A stretch of DNA of 44,507 nucleotides. Source: an uncultured Duodenibacillus sp. Its GTDB lineage: Bacteria; Pseudomonadota; Gammaproteobacteria; Burkholderiales; Burkholderiaceae_F. The stretch spans positions 1 to 44,507 of the forward strand of contig CALXKM010000022.1 in NCBI GenBank assembly GCA_944388865.1, given 5' to 3'. Below, piece by piece: positions 2,496-9,150 of the stretch. The position numbers and the translations under genes were made by a program. How positions within the stretch are numbered: the first letter of the stretch is position 1; each line of letters begins with the position of its first letter. The notes beneath the pieces were generated by a model. The model was given only the letters and a program-made list of their open reading frames with translations. It had not been told where the DNA came from and searched no databases.

Positions 2496-3383
2496 ATGAA
2501 CTTGAGCATTGATGAACTGCGCTCCTTTGCGGCTGCAGCGCAAACGGGATCTTTTTCAGCCGCCGCCAGAAAACTCAAGCGCGCCCAGTCGGTTGTGTCG
2601 GTGCATATCGCTGGTCTCGAAGCTGAGCTCGGCTATAAGCTCTTTGAGAGAACGCCCAAGCCCGTCCTCACGCCGCGGGGACTGGAACTTCTTTCTGCTG
2701 TCAAGCGCGTGATCGCCGAAGCCGACCGTCTGCAGACGAGAGCGCTTGCGCTTGCTGCCAGCGAAACGCCCTCTTTATACATGGGCATTGACTCAGCGCT
2801 TGAAGCGCCCGTCATGATCGACTGGCTCAGACTCTTTGCCCAGCGCTTTCCCGCCGTAAGGCTTCAGGTCGAAAACATCACGGGCTCCGAAGCGCAGTGG
2901 TTTTTTGCCAAAGCCGGCATGAATCTTGCGCTTGTGTTTGACTCGGGCCCTACGTTGGAAAGCAGCGAGCGCGTGCTGGGGCGCTCGCCCTTGGCAATCG
3001 TCGCCGCTAAAACGCATCCTCTTGCGGCCATAGATCGACCTACGGTTGATGATCTGCGCCGGCATCGACAAATCGTCGTCTACGCCAGCGCTCCCGAGTC
3101 AGCCTCTGTTCAGACGGTCAGCACCGATCACTGGGAAGTCGACAGCGGCCTTTGGGCGCTGGGACTTGCAGCCAAAGGCATGGGCTGGGCCATTTTGCCC
3201 AAATTCCTGCTTTTGACGCACTCGCAGTACAAAAATTCCGTCGTCTCCATTGAGGCGCCCTTTGCTCTTGAATCGCAGCGCCTGGTGCTCAGATGCAAAG
3301 CCGGCGAAGTCGGCGACGACATTCTGGATTGGTGGACGCTCACCATCAATCGATTCAAAAACAAAATGGGACTTGAAAGCTGA
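2496..3383 (+). CDS. LysR-family transcriptional regulator
   Basis: The protein is 295 residues, the usual size for the family. An N-terminal winged helix-turn-helix (MNLSIDELRSFAAAAQTGSFSAAARKL ... VSVHIAGLEAELGYKLFER, residues 1-60) is followed by a periplasmic-binding-protein-like effector domain from about residue 88. In this family DNA binding is modulated by a small ligand held in the C-terminal domain. It is divergent from the MFS transporter and shares its promoter region, so control of that transporter is the simplest role. The effector is unknown. Confidence 0.9.
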   Translation: MNLSIDELRSFAAAAQTGSFSAAARKLKRAQSVVSVHIAGLEAELGYKLFERTPKPVLTPRGLELLSAVKRVIAEADRLQTRALALAASETPSLYMGIDSALEAPVMIDWLRLFAQRFPAVRLQVENITGSEAQWFFAKAGMNLALVFDSGPTLESSERVLGRSPLAIVAAKTHPLAAIDRPTVDDLRRHRQIVVYASAPESASVQTVSTDHWEVDSGLWALGLAAKGMGWAILPKFLLLTHSQYKNSVVSIEAPFALESQRLVLRCKAGEVGDDILDWWTLTINRFKNKMGLES

Positions 3384-3518
3384 TTGACTTGAAGCGTTGG
3401 CTGACTTCGCCATCGTTTGATTTTTTTGGAAAAAATTCGACATAGTGGAGCCAACGGTTATATTCTGCCCAATAGCTTTTCGTCATCACCACGTTTTTCA
3501 GACGTCTTCAGGATAGTC

Positions 3519-6500
3519 ATGCGCGCATCGCCAAAACTCTCGCTTCTTTCCGCGGCTCTTTTCTGCACCTTTGCCGCTTCGCCCGCAAGCAGCGCCTTGC
3601 CCAATGCCTTTGACGCCAGAGACTTAGGCATCGTCTCTGCGGTCGACGATCAAGGCCTCTATCCCGTCTGCTGGAGCTTTTCATTTTTTGACGCGTACGA
3701 AGCAAACTGGCGCAAGCAGTTTTTGGATGCAGGCCTAAAGGCGCCTGAGATCAACTTTTCTGAACGATATTTGGTGTGGCTTACAGCTGCCGTACCCACC
3801 CAAGAAGAAAAGCAGCACACGCCTTACGCGATTTTGCCCGACGGAGGCTCGCACGAAGAATGGATCAGCGACGATCTTTGGGAAACCTACGCACACCCGG
3901 GCAACTTCGTTTTTGCAACGTCAACTGCCCTTCAATCGGGCATCGTCAACGAAGTTCCCGGCACGCAGACCGCATACAACCCGGGCTATCCCTACAACGA
4001 CCCATCCGAGATGGGGCCAATTGAAAAGTATGAGGAAAAAGCAGGCGACATCCACGACGTCTTCTACTTTTACAGAACCCCGGACAACCGCCAAGAGTTC
4101 ATCAACAACATCAAAAAGCTTATTGTCGACAACGGCATCTCTTCCATTCACGTCAACGGCAGCGATGAGGTCGATCAGTGGATTTCGGAGTCTGCAGAGC
4201 TTTGCACTGACTCGACGGCCACTAATCACATCGTCACGCTCGTGGGCTGGGATGACGACTACGTTTTTGAAAGTTTGACCGACGAAAACGGCAATCCTCG
4301 CAAAGGGGCCTTCATTTTGCAAAACACCTGGGGAGAAGGCTACGGAAAAGACGGCTACTACTATTTGTCCTACGACAGCGCCGACTTCGATTTCGCCAAC
4401 TCAACCCGCGCCGAACTTGATGCGGGCCGCTACACGACGCTTCAGACGAATTCGCCTCTCATGTACAACGCCCAATACCATCCGCAGCGCTCAGAGGTGC
4501 TGACGGCTTCGGCTTATCGCTCAAACGCAAACCAAATGCTGCGAGCGGTCACCTTCTGGTCGCCAGAAACCAGCACCCGCTATGAAATCACCATTCGTGC
4601 TGCAGAGCGCCCGGGCGAAGGTCGCGTTCTTTATACTCAAAGCGGAGAATTCGGCAAGGACGGCTCGCTTGCCTACCCAGGCATTCGCACGGTGGATTTA
4701 AACGAATTCGTATTTCTGCCCGAAGGCGAGCCCTATACGGTCGAAATCAAAACCATTGCTTCTGAAGAAGAACAATTTGTCTCCTTCACCCATACGACCT
4801 TGTGGTCGACAACTCCCGTCGCTGCGGCCCCAAGCTGGGTTTTTGAAAATGGCCGCTGGGTGGATATGGCTACCCTTTCTGGCGATCCGACAGCCGTCAT
4901 TGAAATGTATGCGCGAGGCAAAAATTCCGACGAGCCGATGGGCATGGACTTTACCGTAACCTCGCTCAACGACAACGGGCTAGGAGGCAGCACCATCGAC
5001 CTCGGCAAAAAAGACGAAAACTACCAAACCGACGCCCTGCTCCCCGATCGAAAGACGCTCTCAAACATGACGGTCAACCTCGAGAGCGGCCGCACGGATT
5101 CAATCTATGGCGGCACGATCACAGGCGAAGGCAGCCTCACAAAGACCGGCACGGGTTTTTTGATTCTCACCGGCAGCAGCGACTACTCTGGCAGCACGCG
5201 CGTTGAAGCAGGCGAACTTTCCGTTGAAGGAAGTCTTGAAAACACAAGCAGTGTGGTGGTCGAAGAAAAAGGCACCCTTTCGGGCTCGGGCACAATCAAA
5301 AGCAATGTTTCCAACAGCGGCACCGTTCGTCCTGGGCAGCACGCTGCGGCAAGTCTCCTTGACCTCATCAATGAAGAAACTTCTGCTGCCTCAATGGCAA
5401 AAAGCTCAGCAAAGAGTGCGCCTTACCGTTTGCTCACGATTGATGGACCCTACTCGCAGTCGGCTCAGGGCACGCTTGAAATCAGCTTTGCCCAAGACGG
5501 CTCGCACGGCGTGCTTAAAGCCGACAGCATCAAAGAACTTGAGGGTTCGATCGTTTTCACGCCTGAGGCTGCGGGATTTTGGACAAGCGACTCCTCATTT
5601 GAGATCTCAAACTTTCTACTGGCAGGGGATACTGCAGTCGGCGAAGAAAACCTCTCAGCCGTTGCCTTTGCCGGCAACGCAAAGTCACCCTCGCTTACGG
5701 CTGGCGTTGAGTCTCAAAAAGGCGCCGCACTTGTCACAATTCATCGCAAGCAAAATGCCTATTCGCAGTACGCCGACGACAAAGGCGCAGCTTCTCTAGG
5801 CAAGGCTCTTGCTGCCATTTCCGAAGTTCTTCCCTCTCAAGGTGAAGAGGACTTCAAAGGGCTTTTCTCAGCGCTGGACTGGTCTGACATTGAAGGCCGC
5901 GACATCGCGCAGGCCCTGCACAGTCTTGGACCGGAAAACTATGACGAGGCCGCTCGCATGAGTCTGCGCCAGCAAAGCGAACTCAATGCCATGCTCGTAC
6001 ATCGTCAGCTTTTAGAAGCACCCGCTGGCAGCGCTTTGCGCGCATCTGACGGCAAAAGCATCTGGGCTGCTCCCTACGGCTCCGTTTCTCGCCAAGACGC
6101 CCACGATAGCTTTGATTCGGCCAAGAGCTACGGTTATGGCCTGATGGCAGGCATCAATGCGCACATAGGCAATGGACTGACCACCGGCGTGCATTTCGCG
6201 CTTGCCTCTCGCGACACACGCCTATCTGGGCCAAGCGGAGCTCAGGCCGAGACAGACTCAATCTATCTGGGGCTGCACGCCAAATACGCTCCCGACTCTT
6301 GGCTTGGCGGCTACCTGCTCGGACAGCTCTCCGTGGGCTATGAAGACGGAAAAATGACCCGTCGCATCCGAGCCGCAGATTATGCGCGCACAGCGCGCTC
6401 GGACTGGCACGGCTTGACTGGAAGCGTTCTTGCGGGCGGCGGTTGGGACTGGACGTTTGCAGCTGAGAATTCTTCGATTCACCTGGGTCCCGTGGGCTGG

Positions 6501-6911
6501 CTGGAACACATGTTTTTGAAGCGCTCGAGTCTGACGGAAGACAATGCAGGCGCAGCCAGCCTTCGCGTTGAGAACGAAACCTACAATGCACTTAGCCTTG
6601 CTCTCGGCGCTCATGCTGGCTTCAAGCACAAAATGCTCGACGGATCAGCTTTTGCTGCCGATGTACTTGCCGCCTACAAGCACGATCTCACCGACGGCGA
6701 CTTTGAGACGAAAGCAGCATTTAGGAAATTTGATAGCACCGGTTTTTCCTCGGACACAGAAACAACCGGGCGCGACGCCTTGCTCATTGAAGCCGGCTTT
6801 GGACTTGAGCAAAGCAAAGGACTCAACGCTAAGCTCTCTTTTGGAAGCGAACTCTTTAGAAACGGCTACTATTCGGCCAATTTCAACTTCAATCTGAGCT
6901 GGCGCTATTGA
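3519..6911 (+). CDS. Autotransporter with papain-like (C1A) cysteine peptidase passenger
   Basis: The protein is 1130 residues from the ATG that follows AGGATAGTC. An earlier in-frame ATG at 3417 would put 34 residues before a clear signal peptide (MRASPKLSLLSAALFCTFAASPASS). Residues 31 to about 300 are a C1A peptidase: Gln45 and Cys51 in QGLYPVCWSFS are six apart, as Gln19/Cys25 are in papain. His237 lies in TNHIVTLVGWDD and Asn269 in QNTWGEGYGKDGYYYLSY. A beta-rich region follows, with an autotransporter-associated strand repeat (SLTKTGTGFLILTG, about residue 540). Residues from about 845 to the end form the outer-membrane barrel, finishing FNFNLSWRY with a terminal aromatic residue. No propeptide is obvious. 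It is monocistronic. The likely role is a surface or released protease, substrate unknown. Known autotransporter proteases are mostly serine peptidases. Confidence 0.88.
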   Translation: MRASPKLSLLSAALFCTFAASPASSALPNAFDARDLGIVSAVDDQGLYPVCWSFSFFDAYEANWRKQFLDAGLKAPEINFSERYLVWLTAAVPTQEEKQHTPYAILPDGGSHEEWISDDLWETYAHPGNFVFATSTALQSGIVNEVPGTQTAYNPGYPYNDPSEMGPIEKYEEKAGDIHDVFYFYRTPDNRQEFINNIKKLIVDNGISSIHVNGSDEVDQWISESAELCTDSTATNHIVTLVGWDDDYVFESLTDENGNPRKGAFILQNTWGEGYGKDGYYYLSYDSADFDFANSTRAELDAGRYTTLQTNSPLMYNAQYHPQRSEVLTASAYRSNANQMLRAVTFWSPETSTRYEITIRAAERPGEGRVLYTQSGEFGKDGSLAYPGIRTVDLNEFVFLPEGEPYTVEIKTIASEEEQFVSFTHTTLWSTTPVAAAPSWVFENGRWVDMATLSGDPTAVIEMYARGKNSDEPMGMDFTVTSLNDNGLGGSTIDLGKKDENYQTDALLPDRKTLSNMTVNLESGRTDSIYGGTITGEGSLTKTGTGFLILTGSSDYSGSTRVEAGELSVEGSLENTSSVVVEEKGTLSGSGTIKSNVSNSGTVRPGQHAAASLLDLINEETSAASMAKSSAKSAPYRLLTIDGPYSQSAQGTLEISFAQDGSHGVLKADSIKELEGSIVFTPEAAGFWTSDSSFEISNFLLAGDTAVGEENLSAVAFAGNAKSPSLTAGVESQKGAALVTIHRKQNAYSQYADDKGAASLGKALAAISEVLPSQGEEDFKGLFSALDWSDIEGRDIAQALHSLGPENYDEAARMSLRQQSELNAMLVHRQLLEAPAGSALRASDGKSIWAAPYGSVSRQDAHDSFDSAKSYGYGLMAGINAHIGNGLTTGVHFALASRDTRLSGPSGAQAETDSIYLGLHAKYAPDSWLGGYLLGQLSVGYEDGKMTRRIRAADYARTARSDWHGLTGSVLAGGGWDWTFAAENSSIHLGPVGWLEHMFLKRSSLTEDNAGAASLRVENETYNALSLALGAHAGFKHKMLDGSAFAADVLAAYKHDLTDGDFETKAAFRKFDSTGFSSDTETTGRDALLIEAGFGLEQSKGLNAKLSFGSELFRNGYYSANFNFNLSWRY

Positions 6912-6936
6912 CGCAGCAGACCTCACGAAAGAATAA

Positions 6937-6972
6937 GCCGCACGAAAGTCCGCAAAAGACTCATCGTGCGGC
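6937..6972. terminator. Hairpin between convergent genes
   Basis: Arms GCCGCACGA and TCGTGCGGC pair exactly, and inside them AGTC pairs with GACT around an A-rich loop. It lies 25 bases after the autotransporter stop and 43 bases beyond the convergent macro-domain gene. No T-run follows on either strand, so termination would be weak or Rho-assisted. Confidence 0.45.
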
Positions 6973-7015
6973 CGCATAAAATCTCAAGCAAAAGTAGAAA
7001 TTGCCGAAGACAACT

Positions 7016-7585
7016 TTACGGGGTGCCTTGCGCCTCGCGGCAGCCCTCGGCAATCAGGTCTTGATATATCCTGAGATTTTCGTCGTCATAGACGCAGAAG
7101 ATGATCTTGTCGAATTCAGGATCAATCTCTAGGCACTGAACGGCAATCTGAATGGCCGCCTGAGCGGCGAGCCGCTTGGGATACTGATAAAAACCAGTGG
7201 AAATGGAAGAAAAGGCAATGGTCTTGAGGCCGTGCACGCGCGCAATTTCGAGCGACTTGGCATAGGCGCGAATCAAAAGCGCCTCTTCGCCCTCTTCTCC
7301 ACCGCACCACATCGGCCCCACTGCGTGAATGACGTACCGGCACGGGAGATTGAAGGCCGGCGTCATGCATGCGCCTCCTGCAAAGCAACGCCCTTCTCTT
7401 TTGACGTATTCAAAGCAGGCAGCGCGAAGCTGCGGACCAGCTGCGCGGTTGATGGCCTGATCAACAACGCCTCCCTCGGTCATATCTGCTCTGGCAGAGT
7501 TGACGATAGCGTCAACCTTGAGCGTGGTGATGTCGGCTTTGACGACTTCGAGTCGTGCACGGATGTTTTCTTTTATGGGAAGCAT
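7016..7585 (-). CDS. Macro-domain protein with altered catalytic loop
   Basis: At 189 residues it is a single macro domain, the fold that binds ADP-ribose and in some members removes it from proteins. Visible hallmarks are KADITTLKVDAIVNSA (residues 16-31), INRAAGP, VIHAVGP and SSISTGFYQYP. The usual NAAN and GGGGVD sequence of MacroD/YmdB-type hydrolases is here NSARADMTEGGVVD, so the second, catalytically important Asn is Arg32. Activity may be lost or changed. I chose the start at MLPIKEN, which carries GAGG upstream; the frame extends 45 codons further but that part overlaps murJ. It begins 14 bases after the murJ stop and is probably co-transcribed. Confidence 0.82.
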   Translation of the reverse strand: MLPIKENIRARLEVVKADITTLKVDAIVNSARADMTEGGVVDQAINRAAGPQLRAACFEYVKREGRCFAGGACMTPAFNLPCRYVIHAVGPMWCGGEEGEEALLIRAYAKSLEIARVHGLKTIAFSSISTGFYQYPKRLAAQAAIQIAVQCLEIDPEFDKIIFCVYDDENLRIYQDLIAEGCREAQGTP

Positions 7586-7599
7586 CGTGAAAATTTTCC

Positions 7600-9150
7600 T
7601 CAATCTCGGGCGGCGCTGCGAAGTTCCTGCGCGCGCCAGCCGCAGACAATCATCGCCGCAAAGTATGTCACAGCCGCGCCGACAATAACACCGGCCACAA
7701 GGAGTAATCGTTTCATCCAATCCTGCTGCATTTCACTCCAGCAAAGATCGGCCTGAATGTAAATCAAAAACCCAGCCATCACCGCCGTGCAGACAACCAC
7801 GCGCAGCATGTAGACAAGCCAGCCGCCTTCTGGCTTGTACCAGCCGCGGCGGCGCAAAATCACAAACAAAACCAAAGCATTAAAGCACGCCCCCACGGCC
7901 ACCGACAACGCAAGCCCGGCGTGCGCAAAAGCAGGCACCGTGATGAAGTTGCAGCTTTGCACAACAACAAGCGAAGCGATGGCCGACTTCACAGGCGTTT
8001 TGATGTCTTTTCTGGCGTAAAACGCGGGCGCGACGATCTTGACCGCAATGAGTCCCAAAAGACCCACGGCATAGCCCTGCATGGCAAGCGCAGTCTGCGC
8101 AACATCAGAAGCCAGAAAGTTCACGCCCTGATAGAGCACCGCAGTCAACGCCTCGCTTGCAAAGGCAAGCCCCGCCGAAGCCGGCAGCGCAATCAAAAAG
8201 ACGATTTTGAGGCTGCGGTCCAAAAGCGTGTTGTAGCGCTCCATCTGTCCCAGATTAAAAGCCGTTGAAAGCCCCGGCAGCAGCACCGTTCCCAACGCCA
8301 CGCCCAATAGCGCCGTCGGAAACTCCATCAGGCGGTCGGCGTAATTGAGCCACGTCACTGCGCCCTTGTCGAGATGCGAAGCGATGTTGGTGTTGATAAC
8401 GATTGACAAAGGCGCAACCGAGACGCCCACCACCGCTGGCACCATGAGCTTTAAAACCTGCCGCACGCCGTCGTGCCTAAAGGCCTTCAAAGGGTTTGTA
8501 AAGTGCGGCATCAAGCCCTTTTTCTTCAAAGCCCAAAACTGCATCGAAAGCTGCAGGACGCCGCCGACAATCACAGCCATCGCCAAAGCCTTCACCGGTT
8601 CTTCAAACCAGTCGATGCAAAAGAGCGTGCAGGCAATAAAGCTCACGTTCAAGAGCACGGGCGTAAAGGCCGGCACCGCAAAATGCTTCCAAGTATTGAG
8701 CACGGCCGCTCCCATGGCAACCATGCTCATGAAGATGATGTAGGGAAACATCCAGCGCGTGAGTTCGCTTGCAAGCGCAAAGGTCTGCGGCGCATCCGAA
8801 AAGCCGGAGGCAATGCAGTAGACAATGACCGGTGCAGCTGCAACGCCGGCAATTGTGGTGAGAAACACGGCCAGCGCCAGGGCCGAGAAGACGTTATCGA
8901 TGAAGTTGTGCTGACTTGCTTTCGATTCGGTTGCCTTTACCTGCGAGAGCATCGGCACAAAGGCTTGGCTGAAGGCCCCCTCGGCAAATAGGCGCCTTAG
9001 CATATTCGGGATGCGGAAGGCGACGTAAAAGGCATCGGTCGCAGCACCGGCGCCGAAATAGCGGGCAATGAGCATGTCGCGCACGAGCCCGGTGATGCGC
9101 GAGAGCATCGTAAGCGCCGAAATCGTGGCGGCCGAACGCAATAAGGACAT
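7600..9150 (-). CDS. murJ: Lipid II flippase MurJ
   Basis: This 516-residue multi-pass inner-membrane protein of the MOP superfamily flips lipid II for peptidoglycan synthesis. The N-terminus from MSLLRSAATISALTMLSRITGLVRDML, with GAGAATDAFYVAFRIPNMLRRLFAEGAFSQAFVP, is nearly diagnostic of MurJ and fixes the start. An upstream extension of 71 codons is open but unlike the family. About 14 hydrophobic segments are visible. It is divergent from rpsT, an arrangement common in betaproteobacteria, and is followed closely by the macro-domain gene. No strong Shine-Dalgarno sequence precedes the ATG. Confidence 0.95.
   Translation of the reverse strand: MSLLRSAATISALTMLSRITGLVRDMLIARYFGAGAATDAFYVAFRIPNMLRRLFAEGAFSQAFVPMLSQVKATESKASQHNFIDNVFSALALAVFLTTIAGVAAAPVIVYCIASGFSDAPQTFALASELTRWMFPYIIFMSMVAMGAAVLNTWKHFAVPAFTPVLLNVSFIACTLFCIDWFEEPVKALAMAVIVGGVLQLSMQFWALKKKGLMPHFTNPLKAFRHDGVRQVLKLMVPAVVGVSVAPLSIVINTNIASHLDKGAVTWLNYADRLMEFPTALLGVALGTVLLPGLSTAFNLGQMERYNTLLDRSLKIVFLIALPASAGLAFASEALTAVLYQGVNFLASDVAQTALAMQGYAVGLLGLIAVKIVAPAFYARKDIKTPVKSAIASLVVVQSCNFITVPAFAHAGLALSVAVGACFNALVLFVILRRRGWYKPEGGWLVYMLRVVVCTAVMAGFLIYIQADLCWSEMQQDWMKRLLLVAGVIVGAAVTYFAAMIVCGWRAQELRSAARD

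Follow-up and report, generated by a model that had tools for sequence, protein, structure and literature searches.

In Cwp84 of Clostridioides difficile (PDB 4ci7, 4d59, 4d5a), a lectin-like domain (PF18560) directly follows a papain-type (C1A) cysteine protease domain; the accessible text of PMC4089489 also gives the protein a propeptide and cell-wall-binding domains and names the ligands of a calcium site in the lectin-like domain. Cysteine protease autotransporters are likewise an already known kind: the accessible part of a 2018 survey has a C1 category of autotransporter peptidases (PMC5767081), and that of PMC12940168 names one from Fusobacterium nucleatum, credited there to Desvaux 2005. 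Here we describe an autotransporter gene in a 44,507-nucleotide stretch of DNA from an uncultured Duodenibacillus sp. (contig CALXKM010000022.1; hereafter the window, meaning the whole stretch). Like those two cases, its product carries a cysteine peptidase on an autotransporter, and, as in Cwp84, PF18560 stands directly after the C1A domain; we call these two domains together the head. Unlike Cwp84, the window protein showed neither propeptide nor cell-wall-binding domains (no Pfam match to the Cwp84 repeats at E 0.001) and continues after the head into a hinge, a strand repeat and an outer-membrane barrel. No description of a Cwp84-type head, a missing propeptide, the hinge or a mosaic origin was found in the accessible parts of the open-access literature searched; in those of PMC7312957 the cysteine proteases are not autotransporter passengers, in those of PMC6555100 cysteine is mentioned once, outside proteases, and the word autotransporter is absent from PMC10380794.

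We read the protein, with a probability of roughly 0.8, as a type Va autotransporter whose passenger, displayed at the surface of the cell, would be a papain-like cysteine protease of Cwp84 type, by the mechanism and through the recent gain set out below. That an autotransporter here presents a papain-type protease at the surface is a well-supported prediction. Pfam placed Peptidase_C1 (2.7e-11), Lectin_like (2.2e-11), one PATR (3.7e-9) and the Autotransporter barrel (1.6e-36) in that order along the 1,130 residues, all above curated cut-offs. A first-pass annotation, made from the letters alone, had proposed an autotransporter with a papain-type protease, with Gln45, Cys51, His237 and Asn269 in C1A context and a barrel with an aromatic end. 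All of this stood, with the four residues at those positions and Tyr1130 as the last residue; the Lectin_like domain, the conserved hinge and the missing propeptide were additional to it. The parts of the gene are as follows.

3519 to 6911, plus strand: autotransporter coding sequence, ATG start, stop ending at 6911, 1,130 residues
3519 to 3593, plus strand: signal peptide, residues 1-25, cleavage site placed by eye
3597 to 4388, plus strand: protease domain of C1A papain type, residues 27-290, immediately following the signal peptide with no propeptide in between
3651 to 3653, plus strand: Gln45, oxyanion-hole glutamine, the same in 67 of 67 alignment rows
3669 to 3671, plus strand: Cys51, catalytic cysteine, the same in 67 of 67 rows
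4227 to 4229, plus strand: His237, catalytic histidine, the same in 67 of 67 rows
4323 to 4325, plus strand: Asn269, catalytic asparagine, the same in 64 of 67 rows
4473 to 4901, plus strand: Lectin_like domain (PF18560), also present in Cwp84, residues 319-461
4905 to 5153, plus strand: conserved hinge, residues 463-545, between the lectin-like domain and the beta-rich stem
5136 to 5225, plus strand: PATR autotransporter strand repeat, residues 540-569
5154 to 5768, plus strand: rest of the beta-rich stem, residues 546-750, in a model of mixed to low confidence
6060 to 6842, plus strand: autotransporter beta-barrel PF03797, residues 848-1108

The signal peptide, MRASPKLSLLSAALFCTFAASPASS-A, was called by eye, and its hydrophobic core LLSAALFCTFA was also found by hydropathy. 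The catalytic columns come from an alignment of the window protein with 66 of 80 relatives, 14 having been excluded beforehand; of these 14, 11 showed the Gln...Cys stretch in a motif search. These relatives were the best 80 loci (of at least 80) kept from a scan of a species-genome collection with one peptide pattern; many were from Clostridia, with Methanosarcina and Synergistota also represented. At the level of fold, the predicted structure of the head was that of papain, in line with the check that the first-pass annotation had proposed, and in sequence searches of solved structures Cwp84 was the top match for the head. The classical disulfides of C1A papain peptidases are not required of bacterial members, and they were not found in the window protein, in whose mature chain Cys51 and Cys229 are the only cysteines.

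Papain-type enzymes are commonly kept inactive by a propeptide until they are at their place of work. An N-terminal inhibitory propeptide, common but not universal in C1A, was not found in the window protein, whose papain core starts about one residue past the expected signal cleavage, with 11 residues from the signal core to FDAR. As a rough measure of propeptide length, picked after several N-termini had been seen, we took the spacing between the YD-R motif and the most hydrophobic 11-residue segment upstream of it. This spacing was 10-14 in all 12 open reading frames (ORFs) of the window's architecture with a readable N-terminus, the window included (two of the 12, G1140 and G1141, are near-identical), and at least 30 in 54 of the 62 other relatives measured, the length being unmeasurable for 17 of the 79 other loci. 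Among the eight short ones, L044, L045 and L066 appear real and the remainder include truncated or misassigned rows; L026 is also short, with LPDFYDMR following the signal peptide, as the script had taken a later motif.

In the mechanism that we propose, Sec would export the protein, the C-terminal barrel would enter the outer membrane and the passenger would be threaded out, its folding starting with the beta-rich stem and ending with the N-terminal head. Folding of the head would take place only outside the cell, which would make a propeptide unnecessary; folding outside would replace it, and a zymogen stage would be absent. Cys51, His237 and Asn269, with Gln45, would then cleave peptide bonds of proteins near the cell, and the lectin-like domain would shape the substrate groove, as in Cwp84. 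The most likely role would be peptide supply or the processing of surface proteins.

Subtilisin-type surface autotransporters such as NalP and SphB1 trim neighbouring surface proteins, and it is possible, if doubtful, that the window protein is likewise a surface maturase, acting on neighbours such as the genome's other autotransporters and not on outside substrates. The link between Cwp84 and cleavage of the surface-layer protein SlpA in the accessible text of PMC4089489 and PMC4356305 would suit such a role, as would the 17 autotransporter barrels of the genome, the window's included, as candidate substrates. Against it, neither a cleavage site nor a partner gene came to light, and the flanking lysR, major facilitator superfamily (MFS), macro and murJ genes are conserved in a sister genome that lacks the protease gene. 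The genome itself is a 2.49-Mb draft in which the 17 barrels above the Pfam cut-off are L104-L120, three of them on contig C28. Another of its autotransporters, L003 (G000:C49), has an HExxH motif in its passenger (TVTHELFHALGL); at E 0.01, Pfam matched no metallopeptidase family to the part of that passenger examined.

The first-pass annotation had suggested a host-directed protease that could cut mucosal proteins, perhaps immunoglobulin A (IgA). Glycoproteins would be fitting substrates for a surface-displayed protein with a lectin-like domain, but we consider this role unlikely. The Sutterella IgA protease found in print, in the accessible part of PMC12785231, is another protein, a serine enzyme of family S6 from strain KLE1602. 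Nor did relatives of the window protein, found in ADurb.Bin157 and, in remnant form, on a plasmid of Selenomonas ruminantium, point to a link with human mucosa, their habitats not having been looked up. At E 0.001, neither Pfam nor NCBIfam gave the window autotransporter a match to an S6 peptidase domain.

The search for related autotransporters across the family, which the first-pass annotation had advised, found the head in one of 67 genomes, the window's own. Eleven of 300 genomes of the order matched the head, namely the window's own and ten over the short papain motif only, in ORFs of 189-367 residues; in the phylum there were two matches among 398 genomes, the non-window one weak. Pfam, run on 10 of the best 80 loci, found a barrel in one, L023 of bacterium ADurb.Bin157, and a barrel model built here also found a barrel in one of the 80, again L023, itself a seed of that model. 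L023 has the same four Pfam families in the same order, is 28% identical end to end and, like the window protein, is without a propeptide. In the ADurb.Bin157 phylum (39 genomes, nine with any match), the same architecture occurred at four places in two genomes. In Negativicutes, the class of Selenomonas sp. ND2010, 38 of 300 genomes matched, most of them weakly, and in G1036 and G977 the head lay within ORFs of more than 1,000 residues. A hinge-centred profile matched 23 of 189 genomes of the G1036 family; the full hinge was present in eight ORFs of five genomes, all eight with the papain head, and the two longest partial matches (G1070, G1021) look like subtilase autotransporters, labelled by eye. 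The total for the architecture was 14 ORFs in nine genomes. Seven of the nine ORFs on which Pfam was run reach PF03797; in the other two, L218 and L219, there was no PF03797 at E 0.01 and Lectin_like was under the cut-off, and the remaining five ORFs were judged by motif and alignment.

Some further loci showed parts of the architecture. In G977 the head (L224) is interrupted, the long frame beginning within the protease and the N-terminal piece lying in a separate short frame. On the Selenomonas ruminantium plasmid pSRC1, adjacent short ORFs (L019/L103) annotated as a C1 family peptidase and an autotransporter domain-containing protein are apparent remnants of the window-type architecture. 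Three records labelled Bacteriophage sp. (L020-L022; MT837935, MT838937, MT839909) hold apparent methyltransferase and C1A-lectin protease genes, with an amidase gene in L020 and L022, all by eye; they look like pieces of bacterial chromosome. The head as a single protein gave 14 pattern matches in viral contigs, none of which was confirmed, and the matches listed from a viral structure library were papain-type peptidases and minor tail proteins, which left the reading unchanged.

In and just after the hinge, residues 467-566 formed the longest conserved run (mean 50-65% per 20-residue step, to six less similar rows), and a TLS(N/D)MT motif stood in nine aligned rows. Among 369 genomes of the window's class, 19 matched the hinge profile; the window alone matched from the profile start, the others starting at position 49 or later, within the general strand repeat, so the first half of the hinge appears specific to the papain-lectin-autotransporter architecture. 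Three of 185 Synergistota genomes matched, none from the start, and a plasmid search with residues 461-547 at E up to 10 returned two weak matches, one in an autotransporter. Our guess is that the hinge is a cap joining head to stem.

The trees of heads and of barrels conflict. In a tree of 12 autotransporter heads and 25 free-standing ones, hand-picked from 65, the autotransporter heads came together in a single branch (88/90, unstarred), within which the window head, itself long-branched, grouped with those of Negativicutes (100/98, starred). In the barrel tree, from which eight of 14 further native barrels scoring under 20 bits against the seed model had been dropped, the window stood with two native barrels (90/90, unstarred), the Negativicutes C1A barrels stood with Negativicutes subtilase-type barrels (100/100), and the L023 barrel lay elsewhere. 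The best native match was L002 (G000:C42), an S8 subtilase autotransporter aligned with window residues 539-1130 at 33% identity; like the window protein it has strand repeat, stem and barrel, but its passenger is an S8 serine protease and not C1A, and its match to the hinge profile does not begin until position 79. Part of the NCBIfam S8 model EprS matched residues 537-608, far under its cut-off. Identity to the Negativicutes relative G977, 66-72% at residues 463-552, was at most 26% from residue 613 onwards, and that to the native S8 autotransporter rose to 40-53% at 523-612 and was then 20-43%, which puts the change-over of closest identity at about residues 540-610. From these comparisons, the gene is probably a mosaic gained recently, a head and hinge of Negativicutes type on a native-type barrel, for which we infer the direction of transfer.

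It is improbable that the whole gene, barrel included, was instead inherited or transferred as a unit whose barrels diverged faster, without recombination between head and barrel. The ADurb.Bin157 relative can be aligned over its full length, and fast barrel evolution and long tree branches would fit such a history; however, approximately unbiased (AU) tests rejected a single clade of all 14 C1A barrels (p-AU 2.3e-38), the window with the Negativicutes barrels (1.2e-117) and, less strongly, the window with ADurb.Bin157-type barrels (0.014), and the switch of identity along the protein also argues against it. The mosaic reading may be taken further, to a mobile, propeptide-free papain-plus-lectin cassette that carries its own hinge across phyla and joins native barrels by recombination in the shared strand repeat, one-way surface folding replacing the propeptide as safety catch; we put this forward tentatively, as an idea with the odds against it. 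A catalytically dead or decaying passenger, of which the degraded or interrupted relatives on pSRC1 and in G977 might be a reminder, is very improbable, as 1,130 codons are open and all four catalytic residues are retained.

The features around the gene are as follows.

3384 to 6953, no strand: stretch without a same-place counterpart in sister genome G017, 3,570 bases
3437 to 3464, plus strand: promoter-like site TCGACA-16-TATATT, 10 of 12, a consensus match only
6937 to 6972, no strand: hairpin between the autotransporter gene and the convergent macro-domain gene, found by eye

In G017 the MFS, LysR, macro and MurJ proteins are 84-93% identical to those of the window and in the same order, yet the stop codons of lysR and macro are about 138 bases apart there versus 3,632 in the window; homology ends at the lysR stop codon and restarts at 6954. 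In three more genomes of the genus macro lies beside murJ, and lysR was not found in their examined stretches. Because nine other genomes of the genus, some incomplete, are without the head, the simplest account is that the window's lineage gained the gene, with loss of the gene from the sister genome as the alternative. Signs of a mobile element were sought and not seen, there being no terminal repeats at the edges of 3384 to 6953 and no G+C step. Promoter-like sites were not in excess over chance (two in 2800-7600 versus a shuffle mean of 1.5). The right arm of the hairpin is common to the sister genome, and the left arm differs but still pairs.

Several observations weigh against a surface-displayed protease with the mechanism and recent gain proposed here. 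The same-place absence of the gene rests on one sister genome, and G+C content (54.7% vs 54.2%) does not set the gene apart. The full-length model (predicted local distance difference test, pLDDT, 62.5; predicted template modelling score, pTM, 0.51) is mostly of low confidence in stem and barrel, the beta-helix of the passenger is visible solely in that mixed-confidence model, and among the matches listed for it all 50 fold matches were to the protease, so that Pfam is the basis of the barrel assignment. In the barrel tree, the node that joins the window to native barrels is unstarred, and branches are long. Four free-standing, barrel-less relatives (L026, L044, L045, L066) seem propeptide-free too, and in the head tree one of them, the Selenomonas protein L026, branches as sister to the autotransporter heads as a whole; propeptide loss may therefore be older than the barrel fusion and not caused by it.

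A papain-like protease with a lectin-like domain on a putative self-exporting surface protein is an unusual pairing, and it may come from a distant bacterial group. The protein is a candidate case of a passenger that crosses phyla and adopts a local barrel. It is also a candidate for a cysteine protease at the surface of a gut-type bacterium, one that could be assayed with existing inhibitors. Outer-membrane autotransporters with a propeptide-free papain enzyme would allow the idea that one-way surface folding can stand in for a zymogen to be tested directly.
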